Of a stretch of DNA of 64,000 nt, positions 2 to 8,973 are shown in pieces. Under the pieces are notes generated by a model. That model did no database searches, was not told the origin of the DNA, and was given only the letters and a program-made list of their open reading frames with translations. Source of the stretch: Nonlabens sp. Ci31 (GTDB lineage: Bacteria; Bacteroidota; Bacteroidia; Flavobacteriales; Flavobacteriaceae); assembly GCF_012974865.1 (NCBI RefSeq), contig NZ_CP043633.1, positions 2,539,501 to 2,603,500 on the forward strand, in the 5' to 3' direction. The position numbers and the translations under genes are program-made. Position 1 is the first letter of the stretch, and each line of letters starts with the position of its first letter.

Positions 2-496
2 ATTGCAACTCGTGTTTTATTAAGCATTAAATTATTTTCCAGTCTTTTAATGATGTTTTTCCCCATTTTGTATTTTAGAGAGATAAAAATAAAAAACATT
101 AATTTCATTAATAGGACCCGAATAATGTCTTTATCTTTAATGCTTCTTATAGTAATCTTATCTATAATTTTTAGAAATCAAATATATTGGTTAATGGGTG
201 CTTCAGATTATATGGAATATAGCTATATGTATAGCTTTTTAGTTATTTCGGAGTTCTTCTTTGTAATTGCCGGTTTATGGGGTATTTATCTTTCATACGC
301 TTTAAAAACTCATGTAACACTTTTAATTTATTTGCTCGGCGCAGTGTTTAATATAATAATTTTAGGTCTATTTTTACCCTTATATGGAATTATAGTAGCT
401 CCTTTATCAATATTAACAACGAATATATTCATGGCGACTTTAATGTTCATTGTATCCTTTAGAATGGAAAGAAAATTTTTAAAATCAATATTATGA
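2..496 (+). CDS. Polysaccharide flippase (Wzx-like), C-terminal part
   Basis: The reading frame is open from the window edge, so the 5' end lies outside; about 165 residues are visible. They are almost entirely hydrophobic, with about four membrane segments separated by short basic loops, as in the last helices of MATE/Wzx-type O-antigen or capsule flippases. The final residues are basic (RMERKFLKSIL). Its stop overlaps the start of the next gene (ATGA-type overlap), so the two are translationally coupled. Function is inferred from hydrophobicity and from the glycan genes that follow; a polysaccharide polymerase fragment is the main alternative. Confidence 0.6.
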   Translation: MATRVLLSIKLFSSLLMMFFPILYFREIKIKNINFINRTRIMSLSLMLLIVILSIIFRNQIYWLMGASDYMEYSYMYSFLVISEFFFVIAGLWGIYLSYALKTHVTLLIYLLGAVFNIIILGLFLPLYGIIVAPLSILTTNIFMATLMFIVSFRMERKFLKSIL

Positions 497-1872
497 ATTT
501 AATAATTGATGGAGATAGGCTGATTTTTAAAAATAATTTCTTTTTGTTAGAAGATTTGTATACACCTGAGTTCTTTAAATATTCTGATAGTAGAGCAGTT
601 GATTATTATAATAAGACATATTTTGTAAATGAATTATTTGTCAATTTCATACAAAATTTTCTCGCTTTAGAGAAATTTATTATGGATAATAAAATTAGTT
701 ATATAGACACGACAAAATCTTCAAACATATTATTGTATTATGTTGTAGACATTGCAAAAACGCATAATCTAAAAATAAGTCGAAGTCGTTCTTATTCAAA
801 ATATTTTAACATCACTAAATTTTATTTCCATTTAGTCAGCTCGTACATTCTCTTGGTTTTATTAATGATTAAAATACCCCAAAAAAAAATTGAGAGAAAG
901 AAAGGAGATATAGCGATTATAAGGACCCCATCATTGAAAAATAAAATTGAGCATTTAAATTTGTTTTCTGAGATCGAGGATCCTTACAGCAATGATTCGT
1001 TGTATAAATATTTCAAACTTTCCACAAGACTTGTTTTGTTAAGTAAATCATTTTTTGAGTCTTTCTCTCAATATGCTGTACTTAAGAATACAATGAAAAT
1101 TTATTTAGGCTGTAATTCGAAATTTTTATTAAACTCATTTTATGGTAAACGTTTAGTTCATTTAAATTTATACAAGAATATTCTTGATTCTTATATGAAA
1201 TCTAACGATTTTGATAAATTGTATACGAGTAACAACTTAGATCGATTTGCAGTGGTAGAGGAGGAATTAGCAAAAAAACATAATGTTAGCCTAGTTGGCA
1301 TTCCTCACGGATTGGAATATGGATTTAAGTTTCCAAAATGTTTTACGGGAGATGTATTTTATGTAACAAGTAAATTAGCTGTTAATTACTTTAATAATTT
1401 ATATAAGACTACTAAATTTATATTTGATGAGGATTTTATTACATCAATTTTCAGAAAAAAGATTATTATCAAATCAGAGACTAAAATTGTATATTTTTCT
1501 GAACCTAGAGAAGGTAATGTAAATCATCAAATTATCAGTGGCTTACTCCCTTTTCTAAAAGATTTTAATGTATCACTAAAATTGAAGTTACATCCTAAAG
1601 AAAAACAGGAAGAGTATCAAAAATATAATTTGGAAATCATAGAGGATTTTAATGAAGCAATTATCGGAAATATTTGTTTTTCAAGAAAGTCTACCATATT
1701 ATTAGAAGCTTTATATAATGACTCGATTTCTTCTGCCATACTAATTAATCAAAAGGATAAAACAATTTTTTCAAATTTCCCATCCCTTCAAATTAAAGAC
1801 ATTAATCAGGCTTATAATTTTAAGGAATTAGCGAATTGGATTATAGAATCCCATAAAATAAAAAAAACATGA
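493..1872 (+). CDS. Putative CMP-ulosonate-dependent glycosyltransferase (GT-B-like)
   Basis: A 459-residue soluble protein with no signal peptide; one hydrophobic stretch lies near residues 112-128. Visible motifs are IPHG (270-273), KLKLHP (363-368) and SRKSTILLE (397-405). An HP motif followed by an S/T-rich motif and a Glu is the pattern of the CMP-binding site in bacterial polysialyltransferases and KpsC/KpsS-type Kdo transferases. That reading agrees with the cytidylyltransferase two genes downstream. It overlaps the flippase gene upstream and the aldolase gene downstream by 4 bp each. The family is inferred from short motifs, not from clear full-length similarity. The gene is strikingly AT-rich. 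Another surface-glycan assembly enzyme is possible. Confidence 0.5.
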   Translation: MNLIIDGDRLIFKNNFFLLEDLYTPEFFKYSDSRAVDYYNKTYFVNELFVNFIQNFLALEKFIMDNKISYIDTTKSSNILLYYVVDIAKTHNLKISRSRSYSKYFNITKFYFHLVSSYILLVLLMIKIPQKKIERKKGDIAIIRTPSLKNKIEHLNLFSEIEDPYSNDSLYKYFKLSTRLVLLSKSFFESFSQYAVLKNTMKIYLGCNSKFLLNSFYGKRLVHLNLYKNILDSYMKSNDFDKLYTSNNLDRFAVVEEELAKKHNVSLVGIPHGLEYGFKFPKCFTGDVFYVTSKLAVNYFNNLYKTTKFIFDEDFITSIFRKKIIIKSETKIVYFSEPREGNVNHQIISGLLPFLKDFNVSLKLKLHPKEKQEEYQKYNLEIIEDFNEAIIGNICFSRKSTILLEALYNDSISSAILINQKDKTIFSNFPSLQIKDINQAYNFKELANWIIESHKIKKT

Positions 1873-3428
1873 AAAAAGATTTTAAAAACGGACTTAAAAT
1901 ACTTGATTGCACTTTAAGAGATGGCGGTTATTACACTAATTGGGACTTTGATGAGCAGTTAGTTAAGGACTACTGTTCTGCAATGGAATCTCTTCCTATA
2001 GACTATGTAGAAATAGGTTACAGAAGTGCGGAGTTAGAGGGTTATTTAGGAGAATATTTTTATTGTCCGGTCTATAAAATGAAAGAGTTAAAACTATTGA
2101 TGCCCAATAAGAAACTTGTTATAATTCTGGATGAAAAAAATGTTGAATTAGAGAATTTGGATGACTTGTTAGACCCTTGTCTTGATTATATCTCTATGAT
2201 AAGAATTGCTATTTCTCCTAATAATTTTGACAAAGCAATTCCAATAGCCATACGAATTAAAGAGAAAGGTTTTGAGGTTGGTTTTAACATAATGTACATG
2301 TCAACTTGGATGGAGAATAAAGAGTTTATCAATAAAATACATATGATTGATGGATTAGTTGACTACTTCTATATGGTAGATTCTTATGGTGGAATTTTGC
2401 CTAATGATGTTAAAGAAGTTGCAGAATTGGTAAAATCAAAGACAAATTCTAAAATCGGATTTCATGGGCACGACAATCTTGAAATGGGTCTTATAAATAG
2501 TATAACTGCTATTAATTGTGGCTGTGCTATCATTGATTCTACTATTACGGGAATGGGTAGAGGGGCAGGTAATCTCAAAACAGAGCTTTTAATGACTTAC
2601 TTAGCATCAAAAATGGATTGGAATATCTCATTTGATGTTTTGAGTGATGTTGTTTCAGATTTTGAAAAACTACAAGAAGAACATAAGTGGGGTACAAATT
2701 TGCCTTATATGATTTCTGGGGCCTATTCTTTACCTCAGAAAGATGTTATGAGTTGGATTTCTAAAAGGAGGTACTCCATAGGAGGTATAGTTAATGCGTT
2801 ACAAGAGCAAGTCTCAGAGGGAGATGTTGTTAAATTCGATATTCTACCAAAAGAGATTGCATTTAAAAAAGCAGTTATTGTAGGAGGTGGCGACAGTGCT
2901 ATATCTAATTTCAAAGCTATCAAATCGTATATTGAGCTGATTTCAAAAGATAAAGATGTTTGTATCATACACGCAAGTACGAGGCATGCTCAAGCATATA
3001 ATAAATTTATTTTACCACAGTTTTACTGTTTAGCAGGAAATGAAGGTCACAGATTGCAAAAAGTATTTAAAAACTTGTCTCTTATAGAACATAAATGCAT
3101 CTTACCAGCTAAAAGGAGTATGGGGTCCTTCGTGCCAAAAGAAATATTAAGCCATACTTTTGAGTTACCTACCACTGATTTTCTTGATAAGCATCATGAT
3201 TCACCGCTAGCGATCGCTATGGAGATCAGTGTTTATTTTGAGATATCAAATATTGATTTTATCGGGTTTGATGGTTATGATGTTACTAAGAATAAGTCGG
3301 AATTTGATATTGCAAAAGAAAATCAATATTTGTTTGATAAGCTAAAATCTAAAAATATAAAATACTCGTCCCTAACAAGTACAAAATATCAGATCAAGGA
3401 AAGCTCCATTTACAGTAAAATAAAATAA
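1869..3428 (+). CDS. DRE-TIM aldolase domain fused to a Rossmann/DUF115-like domain
   Basis: A 519-residue, two-domain protein. Residues about 8-290 are a DRE-TIM (HMG-CoA lyase / 4-hydroxy-2-oxovalerate aldolase) barrel. It has the catalytic signature LDCTLRDGGY (12-21, metal ligand D18), the metal histidines FHGHDN (H199, H201) and the glycine-rich GMGRGAGN (228-235). Residues about 332-519 begin AVIVGGGDSA and end with a block containing IGFDGYD, resembling DUF115/MptE-like or sialyltransferase-like Rossmann domains; this second assignment is weak. Known DRE-TIM aldolases add a pyruvate enolate to an aldehyde. In this cluster I infer formation of a 3-deoxy-2-ketoacid sugar, with CMP activation by the next gene. 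It overlaps the transferase gene by 4 bp and ends 2 bp before the kdsB-like gene. Confidence 0.7.
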   Translation: MKKDFKNGLKILDCTLRDGGYYTNWDFDEQLVKDYCSAMESLPIDYVEIGYRSAELEGYLGEYFYCPVYKMKELKLLMPNKKLVIILDEKNVELENLDDLLDPCLDYISMIRIAISPNNFDKAIPIAIRIKEKGFEVGFNIMYMSTWMENKEFINKIHMIDGLVDYFYMVDSYGGILPNDVKEVAELVKSKTNSKIGFHGHDNLEMGLINSITAINCGCAIIDSTITGMGRGAGNLKTELLMTYLASKMDWNISFDVLSDVVSDFEKLQEEHKWGTNLPYMISGAYSLPQKDVMSWISKRRYSIGGIVNALQEQVSEGDVVKFDILPKEIAFKKAVIVGGGDSAISNFKAIKSYIELISKDKDVCIIHASTRHAQAYNKFILPQFYCLAGNEGHRLQKVFKNLSLIEHKCILPAKRSMGSFVPKEILSHTFELPTTDFLDKHHDSPLAIAMEISVYFEISNIDFIGFDGYDVTKNKSEFDIAKENQYLFDKLKSKNIKYSSLTSTKYQIKESSIYSKIK

Positions 3429-3430
3429 CT

Positions 3431-4168
3431 ATGAAAATTGTAGGAGTTATACCAGCAAGATATAAATCATCTCGATTTGAAGGAAAGCCTTTGGCTTTAA
3501 TTAATTCTAAGCCAATGATAATTCATGTACTTGAGCAGGTTGAAAAGGCTATTGGTAAAGAAAATACTTTCGTTGCTACAGATGATAAAAGAATACATGA
3601 CCTTGTTAAATCAAAAGGTTATAACAGCGTTATTACTCCTGAATCTTGCGCAACAGGAACCGATAGAATTTGGGAATTTGCAAAACAAATAGACGCAGAT
3701 ATTTATTTAAATATTCAAGGAGATGAGCCCATGGTTTCCCCTATTGATATTCTCTCCGTAATTGAGGTAAAGAAAAAAAATATGAATTGCGTTATTAATG
3801 GGATGTTACCTATTTCTAAAAGTGAAGATCCTAATGATATAAATATACCTAAAGTACTTGTTAATAAGAACAATGATTTAATTTACATGTCAAGATTACC
3901 ATTGCCTGGTGTAAAAGATTTGGCCAATAAAACTAAACCACTTTTCTTAAAACAGGTTTGTATTTATGCGTTTAATTTTGAACAATTAAAGACTTTTGGA
4001 ATCAATAATAAAAAAAGTTCATTTGAGGCTTTTGAGGATATTGAAATTCTAAGGTTTATGGATTCTGATATAAAAGTTAAAATGGTGATGATGGAAACGG
4101 AAACAATAGCAGTGGATAACCCAGGTGATATTATAAAAGTTGAGAATGCCATAAAATTAAGAAAATGA
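3431..4168 (+). CDS. KdsB-like CMP-ulosonate cytidylyltransferase
   Basis: A 245-residue protein of normal KdsB length with the full set of signatures: IPARYKSSRFEGKPL (7-21, nucleotide-binding Arg/Lys), ATGTDR (74-79), NIQGDEP (94-100, metal Asp98) and VDNPGD near residue 228. KdsB enzymes use CTP to make CMP-Kdo; relatives make CMP-Kdo8N or other CMP-ulosonates. Because it sits in a tight cassette with an aldolase, a HAD phosphatase and an HP-motif transferase, I infer a cluster-specific acid sugar rather than housekeeping lipid A Kdo; a housekeeping kdsB would be expected elsewhere in the genome. It overlaps the phosphatase gene by 4 bp. Confidence 0.85.
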   Translation: MKIVGVIPARYKSSRFEGKPLALINSKPMIIHVLEQVEKAIGKENTFVATDDKRIHDLVKSKGYNSVITPESCATGTDRIWEFAKQIDADIYLNIQGDEPMVSPIDILSVIEVKKKNMNCVINGMLPISKSEDPNDINIPKVLVNKNNDLIYMSRLPLPGVKDLANKTKPLFLKQVCIYAFNFEQLKTFGINNKKSSFEAFEDIEILRFMDSDIKVKMVMMETETIAVDNPGDIIKVENAIKLRK

Positions 4169-4794
4169 AAATAAAAAATATACTTTGGGATTTTGACGGT
4201 GTTATTTTAGACTCAATGAGTGTAAGAGATTGGGGCTTTCGCGAAATTTTTAAAAACAACAAAAAAGAAGATGTAGATCAATTAATCAGATATCATCGTC
4301 AAAATGGTGGTTTATCTCGTTACGTTAAAATACGATATTTTCATGAAGATATTTTACAAATACCTATTAATGATAGTGAAGTGTTAGCCTACGCAAATTC
4401 CTTTTCTGATTTAATGAGAACTCGGCTAATAGATAAAAGTAATTTAATTCAGGAAACTGTTAATTTTATAAGATTGAATTCTGAAAATTATAATTTCCAT
4501 ATTGTTTCTGGTTCTGATCAAGAAGAATTGAGATTCATTTGTTCACGACTTAATTTATCAAATTATTTTCTTTCAATACACGGGTCACCTACACCTAAAA
4601 ATGAGTTAGTAAAGAATTTAATTTCTAATTATAATTATATTTTTACTGATACAATATTAATTGGTGATTCGGTAAATGACTATGAGGCGGCTAGAAAAAA
4701 CGATCTTAGTTTTTATGGATATAATAATTTGGAATTGAAAAGTATAAGTGATTTTTATATTGAAGGTTTTGAAACATTAGAAAAAAGACTTTAG
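4165..4794 (+). CDS. HAD-superfamily phosphatase of the ulosonate cassette
   Basis: A 209-residue HAD hydrolase with motif I WDFDGVILDS (nucleophile D9, acid D11), motif II Ser in HIVSGSD, and motif IV IGDSVNDYEAA. The insertion between motif I and II makes a helical cap, so it resembles the phosphoglycolate phosphatase/beta-phosphoglucomutase group more than the capless KdsC. By position it is the natural candidate to dephosphorylate the product of the upstream aldolase, as KdsC does for Kdo-8-phosphate. Substrate is inferred. It is the last gene of the AT-rich cluster; 474 bp without a clear gene follow. Confidence 0.7.
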   Translation: MKIKNILWDFDGVILDSMSVRDWGFREIFKNNKKEDVDQLIRYHRQNGGLSRYVKIRYFHEDILQIPINDSEVLAYANSFSDLMRTRLIDKSNLIQETVNFIRLNSENYNFHIVSGSDQEELRFICSRLNLSNYFLSIHGSPTPKNELVKNLISNYNYIFTDTILIGDSVNDYEAARKNDLSFYGYNNLELKSISDFYIEGFETLEKRL

Positions 4795-5268: not shown

Positions 5269-6282
5269 ATGAAGAATAAAGTATTATTAATTACTGGAGG
5301 TACAGGTTCTTTTGGAAACGCAGTACTCAACCGTTTTTTAAACACAGACCATTTTAAAGAGATACGCATCTTTTCCAGAGATGAGAAGAAGCAACATGAT
5401 ATGCGTAAAGAGCTTAATAGTCCTAAGCTTAAGTTTTACATAGGAGATGTGAGGGATAAGAGCAGTATCATGAAAGCTATGCAGGGAGTAGATTATGTAT
5501 TTCACGCTGCAGCTTTAAAGCAAGTTCCTTCCTGTGAGTTTTTCCCGATGGAAGCTACGAGAACTAATGTTTTTGGAACTCAAAATGTCATTGATGCTGC
5601 AGAAGATTGTGAAGTTAAAAAGGTTATTTGTTTGAGTACAGATAAAGCTGCTTATCCTATTAACGCCATGGGAATTTCAAAAGCACTAATGGAAAAGATC
5701 GCTGTAGCCGCATCACGTAATCTTGAAAAAACAGTAGTGTGCTTAACGAGATATGGAAATGTAATGGCAAGTAGAGGATCTGTTATTCCACTTTTTAAAG
5801 ATCAAATCTTGAATGGTGAACCCATTACAGTAACAGACCCTAATATGACACGTTTTTTAATGTCATTGGAAGAAGCAGTAGAGTTGGTGCTATTTGCATT
5901 TGAGCATGGTAATTCTGGAGATTTATTTGTTAATAAAGCTCCCGCAGGAACCATTGGAGATATGGTTACAGCCATGAAAGAGTTGTATAATGCTGATAAT
6001 GAAGTTAAAATTATTGGTACTCGTCATGGAGAAAAGCTCTATGAAACTCTTTGCACTCGAGAAGAAATGATCAAAGCAGAAGATATGGGTGATTTTTACC
6101 GTATCCCTGCAGATAATAGAGATCTTAATTATTCACAATACTTTTCAGAGGGTAAAGAGGATATTTCGAAAATTGATGATTATCATTCTCATAATACAGA
6201 GCAGTTAGATGTTCAAGGAATGAAAGCGCTTATCCGAGAACTGCCTATCATTAAAAACTCGCTTCCGCGAAAGCAAAATTAA
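5269..6282 (+). CDS. capE: UDP-GlcNAc 4,6-dehydratase/5-epimerase (CapE/FnlA/WbjB)
   Basis: A 337-residue short-chain dehydrogenase-type protein. It has the NAD(P) motif TGGTGSFG (9-16), STDKA with K126, and MGISK in place of the usual YxxxK, giving M134 and K138. Replacement of Tyr by Met at this site is characteristic of CapE. The enzyme starts UDP-L-FucNAc synthesis by inverting dehydration of UDP-GlcNAc in the cytoplasm. The cupin, capF and capG genes follow with 2-5 bp gaps, forming the full pathway. The last codons, encoding SLPRKQN, coincide with a variant of the dispersed palindrome, so the C-terminus may be repeat-derived. Confidence 0.93.
   Translation: MKNKVLLITGGTGSFGNAVLNRFLNTDHFKEIRIFSRDEKKQHDMRKELNSPKLKFYIGDVRDKSSIMKAMQGVDYVFHAAALKQVPSCEFFPMEATRTNVFGTQNVIDAAEDCEVKKVICLSTDKAAYPINAMGISKALMEKIAVAASRNLEKTVVCLTRYGNVMASRGSVIPLFKDQILNGEPITVTDPNMTRFLMSLEEAVELVLFAFEHGNSGDLFVNKAPAGTIGDMVTAMKELYNADNEVKIIGTRHGEKLYETLCTREEMIKAEDMGDFYRIPADNRDLNYSQYFSEGKEDISKIDDYHSHNTEQLDVQGMKALIRELPIIKNSLPRKQN
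6261..6274. repeat. Dispersed palindrome, variant, inside capE 3' end
   Basis: GCTTCCGCGAAAGC, one mismatch from the core GCTTTCGCGAAAGC. It encodes the LPRK of the CapE C-terminus and ends 8 bp before the stop. Confidence 0.7.
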
Positions 6283-6286
6283 AATA

Positions 6287-6709
6287 ATGAAGCAACCACA
6301 GATTATTACCGGTGGAACAGCAAATGATAATCGAGGCAGTATCCTTTTTAACAATGATTTAAACTTAGTTGATGTTAAAAGAATGTATACTGTTCAAAAT
6401 AAGACTAAATCATTTGTAAGAGGATGGCAAGGACATAAAATACAACAAAGATGGTTTACTGCTATTGATGGATGTTTTGAAATTAATCTTATCGATTATA
6501 ATAAATTTGAAATGGGAATTACTACTCATTATAAGTTTGAATTATCAAGTGAAGTAAGCAGCACCTTGCATATTCCAGCGGGATATATGACTACTATTCA
6601 AGCCACAACAAACACTAATAAATTGCTAGTTTTTTCAGATTTTTTATTAAATGAGATTGATGATGAGTACAGGTTTGAATTAGGACACTTCAGTATTTAT
6701 TTAAGTTGA
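6287..6709 (+). CDS. WxcM/FdtA-like cupin, sugar epimerase-type
   Basis: A 140-residue single-domain cupin resembling the RmlC/WxcM family (dTDP-sugar 3,5-epimerases and 3,4-ketoisomerases); motifs include GWQGHKIQQRWF and HIPAGYMTT. It starts 4 bp after capE and its stop overlaps a possible TTG start of capF. In FnlA/FnlB/FnlC operons such a small cupin is a common extra gene. It may help the C3 epimerization of the 4-keto intermediate made by CapE, but its exact reaction is not evident from sequence. Confidence 0.65.
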   Translation: MKQPQIITGGTANDNRGSILFNNDLNLVDVKRMYTVQNKTKSFVRGWQGHKIQQRWFTAIDGCFEINLIDYNKFEMGITTHYKFELSSEVSSTLHIPAGYMTTIQATTNTNKLLVFSDFLLNEIDDEYRFELGHFSIYLS

Positions 6710-6714
6710 AAACA

Positions 6715-7836
6715 ATGAAGAAAATAGGAATTACCGGTCAAGAAGGTTTTTTAGGATCACATATAGCTAATAATTTAAAGTTATTGCCAGAGGAGTATCA
6801 ATTAGTTTATTATGATATTTCCTTCTTTAAAAACAAAGATCTATTAGATCAATTTGTATCCAGCTGCGATGTTATTTATCATCTAGCAGCCATGAACAGA
6901 CATGATGATCAACAAGTCATTTTTGATACTAACATAGCGCTAGTAGAAAGTCTCATTGCTTCACTAGAAAGAACTAATTCAGCACCACACGTCCTCTTTT
7001 CTTCTTCTTCTCAAGAGCTACAGGATAATCTATACGGTAAGTCTAAGCTCATAGGCAGAGAACTTCTGGAAAAATGGGCAAAAGAAAACAAAGCTAGTTT
7101 TACAGGTTTTGTTATTCCTAACGTATATGGACCATTTGGTAAACCATTTTATAATTCTTTTGTAGCAACTTTTTGCCATTTATTGACTCATAATGATAGT
7201 CCCAAAGTATTAAATGACAGTGAAGTATCCTTAATTTATGTTCAAAATTTAGTAGTAGCAATGCTTGAGCCCATAAAAAATATAGAAATAGGTATAAATA
7301 GAATAGCTGTTCCAGAAGATGGAACTTATAAAGTAAGTGAAGTTTTAGTTCTGCTCAACAGATTCAAGAAAGATTATTTTGATCAAGGCATAATGTCTTC
7401 CCTTAAGGATGGATTTGAACTAAATATGTTTAATACTTTTAGAAGTTATATCGATCATAAAAATCATTTCCCAGTTTTATATGCTCAACATACAGATGAT
7501 AGAGGTGCTTTTGTTGAAATAATAAGATTGGAACAGCAAGGACAGGTTTCTTTTTCTACTACAGTTCCTGAAGTGACAAGGGGAAATCATTACCATACGA
7601 GAAAAATAGAAAGATTCTCTGTAATTAAAGGTAAAGCGCTTATTGAATTACGTAAAATTGGTACAGACGAGGTGCTGAGTTTCCATCTTGATGGAAAACA
7701 ACCTTCGTATGTAGATATGCCTATATGGTATACACATAATATTAAAAATATAGGAGGAGAAGAATTATATACTATGTTTTGGATCAATGAATTTTATGAT
7801 CCCAAAGATGCAGACACCCATTTTGAAACCGTTTAA
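6715..7836 (+). CDS. capF: CapF/FnlB/WbjC bifunctional epimerase-reductase
   Basis: About 373 residues, matching the 369-373 of CapF. An N-terminal NAD(P)-binding SDR domain starts ITGQEGFLGSH and has a reductase site around YGKSK. A C-terminal cupin follows (motifs GNHYHTRKIERF and MPIWYTHNI) with metal-ligand histidines. CapF epimerizes C3 and reduces C4 of the CapE product to give UDP-6-deoxy-L-talosamine-type sugar. A TTG at 6706 is in frame, but it overlaps the previous stop; the ATG at 6715 puts the glycine motif where it belongs and is preferred. A 3 bp gap precedes capG. Confidence 0.93.
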   Translation: MKKIGITGQEGFLGSHIANNLKLLPEEYQLVYYDISFFKNKDLLDQFVSSCDVIYHLAAMNRHDDQQVIFDTNIALVESLIASLERTNSAPHVLFSSSSQELQDNLYGKSKLIGRELLEKWAKENKASFTGFVIPNVYGPFGKPFYNSFVATFCHLLTHNDSPKVLNDSEVSLIYVQNLVVAMLEPIKNIEIGINRIAVPEDGTYKVSEVLVLLNRFKKDYFDQGIMSSLKDGFELNMFNTFRSYIDHKNHFPVLYAQHTDDRGAFVEIIRLEQQGQVSFSTTVPEVTRGNHYHTRKIERFSVIKGKALIELRKIGTDEVLSFHLDGKQPSYVDMPIWYTHNIKNIGGEELYTMFWINEFYDPKDADTHFETV

Positions 7837-7839
7837 ATA

Positions 7840-8973
7840 ATGAAAAAATTAAAAGTAGCTACAGTTGTAGGGACACGACCAGAAATTATTAGACTCTCGA
7901 GGGTTCTAGCAGCATTAGATGCATCTCCTGCAATAGAACACACTTTAATTCACACTGGTCAAAATTACGACTATGAATTAAATCAAATTTTCTTTGATGA
8001 TTTAGGTCTACGTAAACCAGATTATTTCCTTGAGGCAGCTGGTAAGAGTGCAGCTGAGACCGTAGGTAATATCATGATCAAAATAGATGTGCTTTTAGAG
8101 GAGTTAAAGCCTGAAGCCTTTCTAGTATTAGGAGATACAAATAGCTGTTTGTGTGCTATCCCAGCAAAAAAACGTCAAATTCCAATATTCCACATGGAGG
8201 CAGGAAATAGGTGTTTTGATCAACGAGTACCAGAAGAAACCAATCGTAAAATCGTCGACCATACGTCAGATGTTAATTTAACCTATTCCGATATCGCTCG
8301 AGAATATTTATTAAGAGAAGGTTTACCAGCAGATCGCATTATAAAGACGGGCTCCCCCATGTTTGAAGTTCTTAATCACTATTTGAGTGATATAAAAGCC
8401 TCCAATGTAGTTAAAGAACTGGGTTTAGAAAAAGGAAAATATTTCGTTGTTTCTGCACACAGACAAGAAAATATAAATAGCGATAGAAACTTTTTTAATC
8501 TTTTTGAAACATTAAATGAAATTGCAAAAAAGTATGATTACCCCATAATCTTCTCAACCCATCCTAGAACCAGAAATCGTATTGATACGGCTAAATTAGA
8601 GCTGAATAGAAACATAAGGTTCTTAAAACCGCTAGGTTTTAATGATTATAATAATCTACAAGCAAATGCATTTGTAGTACTTTCTGACAGTGGAACTATT
8701 TCTGAAGAGTCCAGTATTCTTAATTTTAGAGCGCTTAATATCAGAGAAGCTCATGAGCGTCCTGAAGCTATGGAAGAAGCATCCGTAATGATGGTCGGTT
8801 TAGAAAAAGAACGTATTTTACAAGCCCTAGAGCACGTGCAGTTGCAGCAAATAGATGAGCACAGAAGCATGCGATTAGTAGCAGATTATTCTATTCCTAA
8901 CGTAAGTGAGAAAGTAGTAAGGATCATTTTGAGTTATACAGATTATATAAGAAAGGTAGTTTGGCGTGAGTAA
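7840..8973 (+). CDS. capG: UDP-N-acetylglucosamine 2-epimerase-like CapG/FnlC
   Basis: A 377-residue non-hydrolysing UDP-GlcNAc 2-epimerase family member (WecB type). Motifs include VVGTRPEIIRL near the N-terminus, HTGQNYD, GDTNS, HMEAGNRCFDQRVPEE, SAHRQENI and SDSGTISEESS. In this operon it performs the C2 epimerization that completes UDP-L-FucNAc. Gene order capE-cupin-capF-capG and the WbuB-type transferase next door support CapG over a generic WecB. It lies 3 bp after capF, and its end may overlap the next frame. Confidence 0.92.
   Translation: MKKLKVATVVGTRPEIIRLSRVLAALDASPAIEHTLIHTGQNYDYELNQIFFDDLGLRKPDYFLEAAGKSAAETVGNIMIKIDVLLEELKPEAFLVLGDTNSCLCAIPAKKRQIPIFHMEAGNRCFDQRVPEETNRKIVDHTSDVNLTYSDIAREYLLREGLPADRIIKTGSPMFEVLNHYLSDIKASNVVKELGLEKGKYFVVSAHRQENINSDRNFFNLFETLNEIAKKYDYPIIFSTHPRTRNRIDTAKLELNRNIRFLKPLGFNDYNNLQANAFVVLSDSGTISEESSILNFRALNIREAHERPEAMEEASVMMVGLEKERILQALEHVQLQQIDEHRSMRLVADYSIPNVSEKVVRIILSYTDYIRKVVWRE

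Follow-up and report, generated by a model that had tools for sequence, protein, structure and literature searches.

A two-domain DRE-TIM aldolase paired across phyla with cytidylyltransferases points to a probable phosphoenolpyruvate-independent route to surface ulosonic acids

The stretch analysed here, 64,000 nt from Nonlabens sp. Ci31 (GCF_012974865.1, NZ_CP043633.1 positions 2,539,501-2,603,500, forward strand; hereafter 'the window'), starts within a surface-polysaccharide gene cluster and carries near its beginning a cassette in which a two-domain aldolase-type gene is followed by genes for a KdsB-type cytidylyltransferase and a HAD hydrolase. The best explanation, in which we have moderate confidence, is that this gene set provides a route independent of phosphoenolpyruvate (PEP) to an ulosonic acid activated with cytidine monophosphate (CMP), a sugar other than 3-deoxy-manno-octulosonate (Kdo) that would enter the repeat unit of a polysaccharide on the cell surface. 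To our knowledge, biosynthesis of Kdo and sialic-type acids for bacterial surfaces has been described only via PEP-dependent synthases. Five consecutive genes are tightly packed, adjoining or sharing a few bases, and between the ORFs (open reading frames) of the cassette the overlaps or gaps measure 2-4 bases; the four contiguous genes reported by a first-pass annotation of this DNA are the last four of them. The features are as follows.

2-496: membrane protein matching no Pfam or NCBIfam family; its end overlaps the start of the next gene
493-1872, + strand: orphan protein of 459 residues, putative glycosyltransferase from its position only; 4-base overlap with the aldolase gene
1869-3428, + strand: two-domain aldolase-type protein of 519 residues, PF00682
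1869-2810, + strand: aldolase N-terminal domain, residues 1-314, DRE-TIM TIM barrel; nearest to 3dxi and to 4-hydroxy-2-oxovalerate aldolases (HOA), which are pyruvate aldolases
1917-1931, + strand: signature codons Arg17-Asp18-Gly-Gly-Tyr21, invariant in 70 of 70 sequences
2463-2471, + strand: codons of His199 and His201, the remaining metal-ligand positions, invariant in 70 of 70 and aligning to the His-x-His of 1nvm
2844-3425, + strand: aldolase C-terminal domain, residues 326-519, predicted Maf/SteA/MptE-like Rossmann fold
3431-4168, + strand: KdsB-type cytidylyltransferase, the second copy in the genome, above the NF009905 cut-off and in the aldolase-associated clade
3953-3961, + strand: codons of Gln175 and Cys177, the changed sugar-domain positions of the cytidylyltransferase
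4165-4794, + strand: HAD hydrolase, probable ulosonate-phosphate phosphatase, PF13419

The co-occurrence of these genes, which the first-pass annotation had put forward as a check on its proposal, extends well beyond this strain. Among 395 genomes sampled from the phylum, ten match the aldolase: nine encode both of its domains, at ten loci in all, and the tenth encodes its N-terminal part only. All ten two-domain loci, including that of the window, have a cytidylyltransferase and a HAD homologue nearby: the eight cytidylyltransferases tested match PF02348, those of L029 and L031 exceed the NF009905 cut-off, and L032 has only a partial HAD gene (153 residues). A profile search of GTDB supplied the best 80 of 560 relatives. 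Neighbouring genes were then tallied for 88 loci, some of them from close relatives, by a six-frame scan, chosen because longer spurious ORFs hid genes in GC-rich loci; the tally omits L056 and L058, whose contigs duplicate L032 and L030, and the single-domain L033, and keeps both L113, a single-domain homologue counted among the loci without a cytidylyltransferase, and L048, which has a partial KdsB-type match. A KdsB- or PseF-type cytidylyltransferase lies downstream on the same strand, within 5.5 kb, in 77 of these 88 distinct loci, being KdsB-like in 40 and PseF-like in 37 when the nearest such gene is considered. Three further loci have a cytidylyltransferase upstream only and eight have none, although in three of these eight the sequence stops no more than 10 bases from the match to the aldolase; where at least 1.5 kb of downstream sequence is available, the count is 76 of 83. 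HAD homologues occur downstream of the aldolase in 51 loci, in 50 of which a downstream cytidylyltransferase is also present, and in 22 loci the downstream cytidylyltransferase is accompanied by neither a HAD nor an HpaI match. In a control based on 46 loci from the window's phylum, the next gene is a cytidylyltransferase after 37 of 44 scored aldolases, compared with 11 of 574 other genes, and one is found within the next three genes for 44 of 44 aldolases, compared with 90 of 574 other genes.

On an aldolase-domain tree of the 80 loci with a cytidylyltransferase, the type switches between KdsB and PseF 18 times; at least 12 of these changes are forced by well-supported branches (13-14 when loci without a cytidylyltransferase are counted as a third state, 12 without them), and the types are still more clustered than shuffled labels. 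As the type has been swapped repeatedly, the link between aldolase and cytidylyltransferase looks functional: repeated replacement by a partner performing a similar job is expected if the product of the aldolase must be coupled to CMP. The link also seems to follow the two-domain form of the aldolase, because no cytidylyltransferase appears in the available sequence or annotation of the three single-domain homologues (L033, L113 and L151). The one annotated full module seen, on a Leisingera plasmid, has the order aldolase, 'Kdo cytidylyltransferase', HAD, with the labels 'aldolase catalytic domain-containing protein' and '3-deoxy-manno-octulosonate cytidylyltransferase'.

The identification of the first of these enzymes as a DRE-TIM aldolase with all its metal ligands, made in the first-pass annotation, holds: the protein scores 72 bits against PF00682 (cut-off 29), and its predicted TIM barrel matches solved DRE-TIM metallolyases. 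Arg17, Asp18, His199 and His201, located by alignment to 1nvm, are identical in all 70 aligned sequences, which comprise the window's copy and 69 of the 72 eligible ORFs (L036, L038 and L081 being left out; 52 of the same 70 make up a further set, A3). We take Asp18, His199 and His201 to bind the metal, as at the equivalent positions of 1nvm, and all 70 aldolases have Tyr21 where 1nvm has His21, presumably its general base. The closest solved structure, 3dxi, is the N-terminal domain of BVU_2661 from Bacteroides vulgatus, for which there is a structure only, entitled 'putative aldolase', and a literature search by its names found no functional study; the next closest enzymes are pyruvate aldolases, and DRE-TIM Claisen enzymes are also relatives. 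The nearest characterised fold is that of HOA (1nvm, 4jn6, TIGR03217), which shares the TIM barrel, Arg17 and the metal-ligand positions. By contrast with HOA, the cassette protein has Tyr21 and an extra C-terminal domain, and scores 94.1 bits against TIGR03217, far under the cut-off of 286; by this measure it does not fall among the acetaldehyde-forming aldolases, and falling among them had been named in advance as damaging to the proposal. A search of genome contigs with the single aldolase protein returned 18 stretches, none of them a relative.

The most distinctive part of the protein, its C-terminal domain, had gone unremarked in the first-pass annotation. Comparison of its predicted structure using VIA-align gave the Maf flagellin glycosyltransferase (5mu5) as the best match, in a near tie with SteA (9hmz), followed by the MptE-type HPPK (8sd5) and, weakly, sialyltransferases, so that by predicted structure it has an MptE-like/Maf fold. 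A Foldseek search gave no match at E <= 0.001, and a profile of the domain found weak matches among PDB sequences, the best being HPPK at E 0.029. PF01973 (MptE-like/Maf) is matched by 36 of the 70 aldolases at E <= 0.5, with a best value of 5.4e-9, the window's copy being among those without a match. The resemblance to Maf, SteA and MptE/HPPK is one of predicted fold, and in the cassette, unlike those proteins, the domain is fused to an aldolase. It is possible, if rather unlikely, that the protein is bifunctional, the barrel making the acid from pyruvate and the Maf-like domain receiving its CMP-form from the adjacent cytidylyltransferase and transferring it. If so, this would be a self-contained class of PEP-independent CMP-ulosonate pathways with interchangeable cytidylyltransferases, and its product in Bacteroidota, Pseudomonadota, Prochlorococcus, Omnitrophota and others would be a surface sugar not yet described.

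The second enzyme was correctly recognised as a KdsB-type cytidylyltransferase, as it exceeds the cut-off of the broader subfamily NF009905 (266.2 bits, cut-off 255), though it falls under that of the equivalog TIGR00466 (137.8 bits, cut-off 155.2). A sole KdsB accepting only Kdo would have counted against the proposal, but the genome has a housekeeping copy approximately 106 kb away (G000:C1:2648768); KdsB is present in all 31 genomes of a same-family sample, with two copies only in the window's genome and in G397. A tree was built from 78 KdsB-type proteins, 39 of which are associated with the aldolase. It places 31 of the associated rows and two others on a 33-row branch (support 100/98) that includes the window's protein, spans Bacteroidota, Pseudomonadota, Cyanobacteriota and Omnitrophota, and contains none of the 33 housekeeping KdsB. 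The remaining eight associated rows group elsewhere, five being from loci with HpaI and one more from Omnitrophota; L114, labelled housekeeping in this tree, adjoins an HpaI gene, and L048, with its partial match at a contig end, was not included. Arg10, Lys19, Asp98, Arg155, Asp229 and other residues are common to the associated clade and the housekeeping enzymes. By contrast, all 31 members of the associated clade have Gln and Cys at positions 175 and 177, where 33 of 33 housekeeping KdsB have His and Gly, in a comparison omitting ten rows (the eight that group apart, L114 and the long row L083, which is in neither set); His and Gly are likewise found at the equivalent positions of the five Kdo enzymes, of 13 matched in the PDB, whose alignments were inspected. 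According to PMC3149649, the C-terminal domain of the Kdo enzyme, corresponding to the changed one, binds Kdo, and the N-terminal domain binds cytidine triphosphate. Judged from these sequences, Kdo is an unlikely substrate of the cassette enzyme, because of its separate cross-phylum clade and the Gln/Cys in place of His/Gly, and a different sugar is the simplest reading.

The distribution of known ulosonate-forming enzymes among hosts is also informative. Neither KdsA nor NeuB was found within the cassette, or anywhere in three module-bearing genomes that are 98-99% complete (G054, G112 and G123). Both are present outside the cassette in the window's genome, while G203 has NeuB and no KdsA and G198 has KdsA and no NeuB. 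Aldolases of the HpcH/HpaI family, which lie inside the module in G054 and G112, were not found in G123, G198, G202 or the window's genome, leading us to reject HpaI as a constant requirement. In G123 no KdsB was found besides the KdsB-type enzyme of the module, and of the candidates looked for there as makers of its substrate (KdsA, NeuB, HpcH/HpaI and the two-domain aldolase) only the last is present.

From these data we infer every catalytic step, as well as what the substrate is and which way the aldol reaction runs. The TIM barrel would add a metal-bound pyruvate enolate to an aldehyde, probably a phosphorylated sugar aldehyde, to give a 4-hydroxy-2-oxo (ulosonic) acid; the HAD enzyme (48.4 bits against PF13419, cut-off 23.8, in agreement with its first-pass label) would then strip the phosphate, and the KdsB-type enzyme would join the acid to CMP. 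The product would be a CMP-activated 3-deoxy-2-ulosonic acid, which a transferase would place onto a glycan. For this last step, either the Maf/MptE-like domain of the aldolase may bind the CMP-ulosonate, as a transferase or as a feedback sensor, or the neighbouring orphan protein may transfer the ulosonate. The logic of synthase, phosphatase and cytidylyltransferase is that of the Kdo pathway (KdsA, KdsC and KdsB), from which the cassette differs in having an aldolase for the PEP synthase, a KdsB of a separate clade and changed residues in the sugar domain. Similarly, the NeuB, PseI and LegI pathways, with NeuA or PseF, yield CMP-activated ulosonic acids, and PseF-type enzymes are the nearest downstream cytidylyltransferases in many module loci; unlike those pathways, the module has no NeuB, and some genomes bearing it have none at all. 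A literature search, made at the level of titles and abstracts and covering few subscription journals, found no paper describing the proposed pathway. If a widespread pyruvate-aldolase route exists, surveys using NeuB or KdsA as the marker would overlook a whole class of acidic surface sugars, the structural-genomics orphan 3dxi would gain a function, and the presence of second KdsB genes, at present labelled Kdo enzymes, would be accounted for.

The first-pass annotation had itself suggested a pyruvate-aldolase route to a CMP-ulosonate without a PEP synthase, and this part of it is strengthened by the cross-phylum co-occurrence and by the hosts without KdsA and NeuB. Its 'HP-motif transferase', the orphan gene at 493-1872, did not fare as well: the label rests on the short motif KLHPKE, as the protein matches no Pfam or NCBIfam family, no PDB sequence at E <= 10 and nothing in the other 389 of the 390 genomes covered by a phylum search. 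Candidate transferases of recognised families do occur beside other copies of the module. A GT29-type gene directly follows the HAD gene in six Bacteroidota loci (L039, L043, L049, L052, L066 and L071, at approximately 12.8-13.6 kb), the three checked against Pfam matching PF00777, and a POLYST-type family is present in six loci, the two members checked belonging to PF07388 (polysialyltransferase). Both are CMP-sialate-type families and neither is a constant partner of the module; GT29 is an animal-type sialyltransferase family.

Several observations weigh against the proposed route and favour a reading in which the aldolase instead breaks down an ulosonic acid, or regulates its level, while a different enzyme, for example HpaI or NeuB, makes it. 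HpaI-type aldolases occur in ten of the 88 loci, beside the two-domain aldolase in five and before KdsB in five more, and in the latter five the partner of the two-domain aldolase is doubtful. In G397 (L114 and L153; G397:C2:153500-173000), an HpaI gene directly precedes the KdsB-type gene, a HAD homologue follows after approximately 2.5 kb, and the 19.5 kb scanned contain no two-domain aldolase, which leaves the division of labour ambiguous wherever both aldolases are present. An apparent NeuB pathway with its own cytidylyltransferase also shares the surface cluster, upstream of the window. This reading is nevertheless unlikely, as HpaI is absent from the genomes of the window, G198, G202 and G123, NeuB is absent from G198, G054, G112 and G123, and the NeuB gene upstream of the window already has a PseF-type neighbour. 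The G397 pair, in which a pyruvate aldolase of a different family adjoins a KdsB-type gene, fits the general logic of such an aldolase feeding CMP activation, and HpaI may represent a second aldolase family serving CMP-ulosonates; we know of no published account of an HpaI-type aldolase beside a KdsB-type gene. The G397 genes are followed by an apparent 2-hydroxyacid dehydrogenase and a short-chain dehydrogenase/reductase, both read by eye.

Synthesis of extra Kdo for a capsule, in which the cassette's KdsB-type enzyme would be a second, KpsU-like CMP-Kdo synthetase and the aldolase would have an unrelated task, would accord with the NF009905 score, with the KdsA elsewhere in the window's genome and with the best solved relative being 1gq9, an Escherichia coli capsule enzyme. 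This is quite unlikely given the Gln/Cys pair in the whole associated clade where the compared Kdo-type proteins have invariant His/Gly, the KdsB-type gene of G123 in a genome without KdsA, and the PseF-type enzymes that occupy the same place beside the same aldolase. It is improbable that the DRE-TIM enzyme, instead of building a sugar skeleton, supplies the cluster's legionaminic-type sugar with an acyl or hydroxy-acid decoration, despite the formyltransferase-like and LegC-type aminotransferase genes of the neighbouring pathway and the Claisen enzymes among its relatives. Activation of a phosphonate by the cytidylyltransferase would recall the cytidylyl activation that PMC6697681 describes as common in phosphonate gene clusters, and is very improbable: the pathway is disfavoured because PEP mutase (TIGR02320, E <= 1e-10) is unmatched in nine of nine module-bearing genomes (a search without a full positive control, since none of the 14 control genomes passes the family cut-off), and the enzymes named in that paper include PF12804 and PF01467, as opposed to the PF02348 of the cassette type. 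The idea that rhizobial RkpM might be such an aldolase was rejected, since PMC7591256 lists RkpM with PseC as an aminotransferase.

The NeuB pathway upstream of the window (L004:8810-16054) is apparently of legionaminic type. Its LegC-type aminotransferase, NeuB and NeuC-type epimerase score above curated cut-offs, while a dehydratase, a formyltransferase, a sugar nucleotidyltransferase and the PseF-type cytidylyltransferase are best matches below cut-off; next come a polymerase and a protein that matches glycosyltransferases weakly. As there is a formyltransferase-like gene and no acetyltransferase among the nine genes scanned, the predicted sugar may be N-formylated. Downstream of the cassette, window positions 5269-8973 encode an FnlA-type dehydratase, a cupin-like protein without a family match, a WbcJ-type reductase and a WecB-type epimerase; the FnlA-, WbcJ- and WecB-type genes probably serve an N-acetyl amino-deoxy sugar.

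Other aldolase loci have different neighbours. The single-domain homologue on a Priestia megaterium plasmid (L151:5986-6945) lies beside ring-cleavage (meta-cleavage) genes and may be a catabolic pyruvate aldolase. In two Pelagibacteraceae loci (L088 and L091, from 9995) no cytidylyltransferase lies near the two-domain aldolase on its strand, and the aldolase is followed by an apparent radical SAM protein, identified by eye. LdpA-like 4Fe-4S proteins, one of them confirmed by Pfam (PF12617), are found near the aldolase in L084, L087, L090, L093, L095, L100 and L101, and an HpaI-KdsB pair is near the aldolase in L084, L090, L093, L095 and L101.

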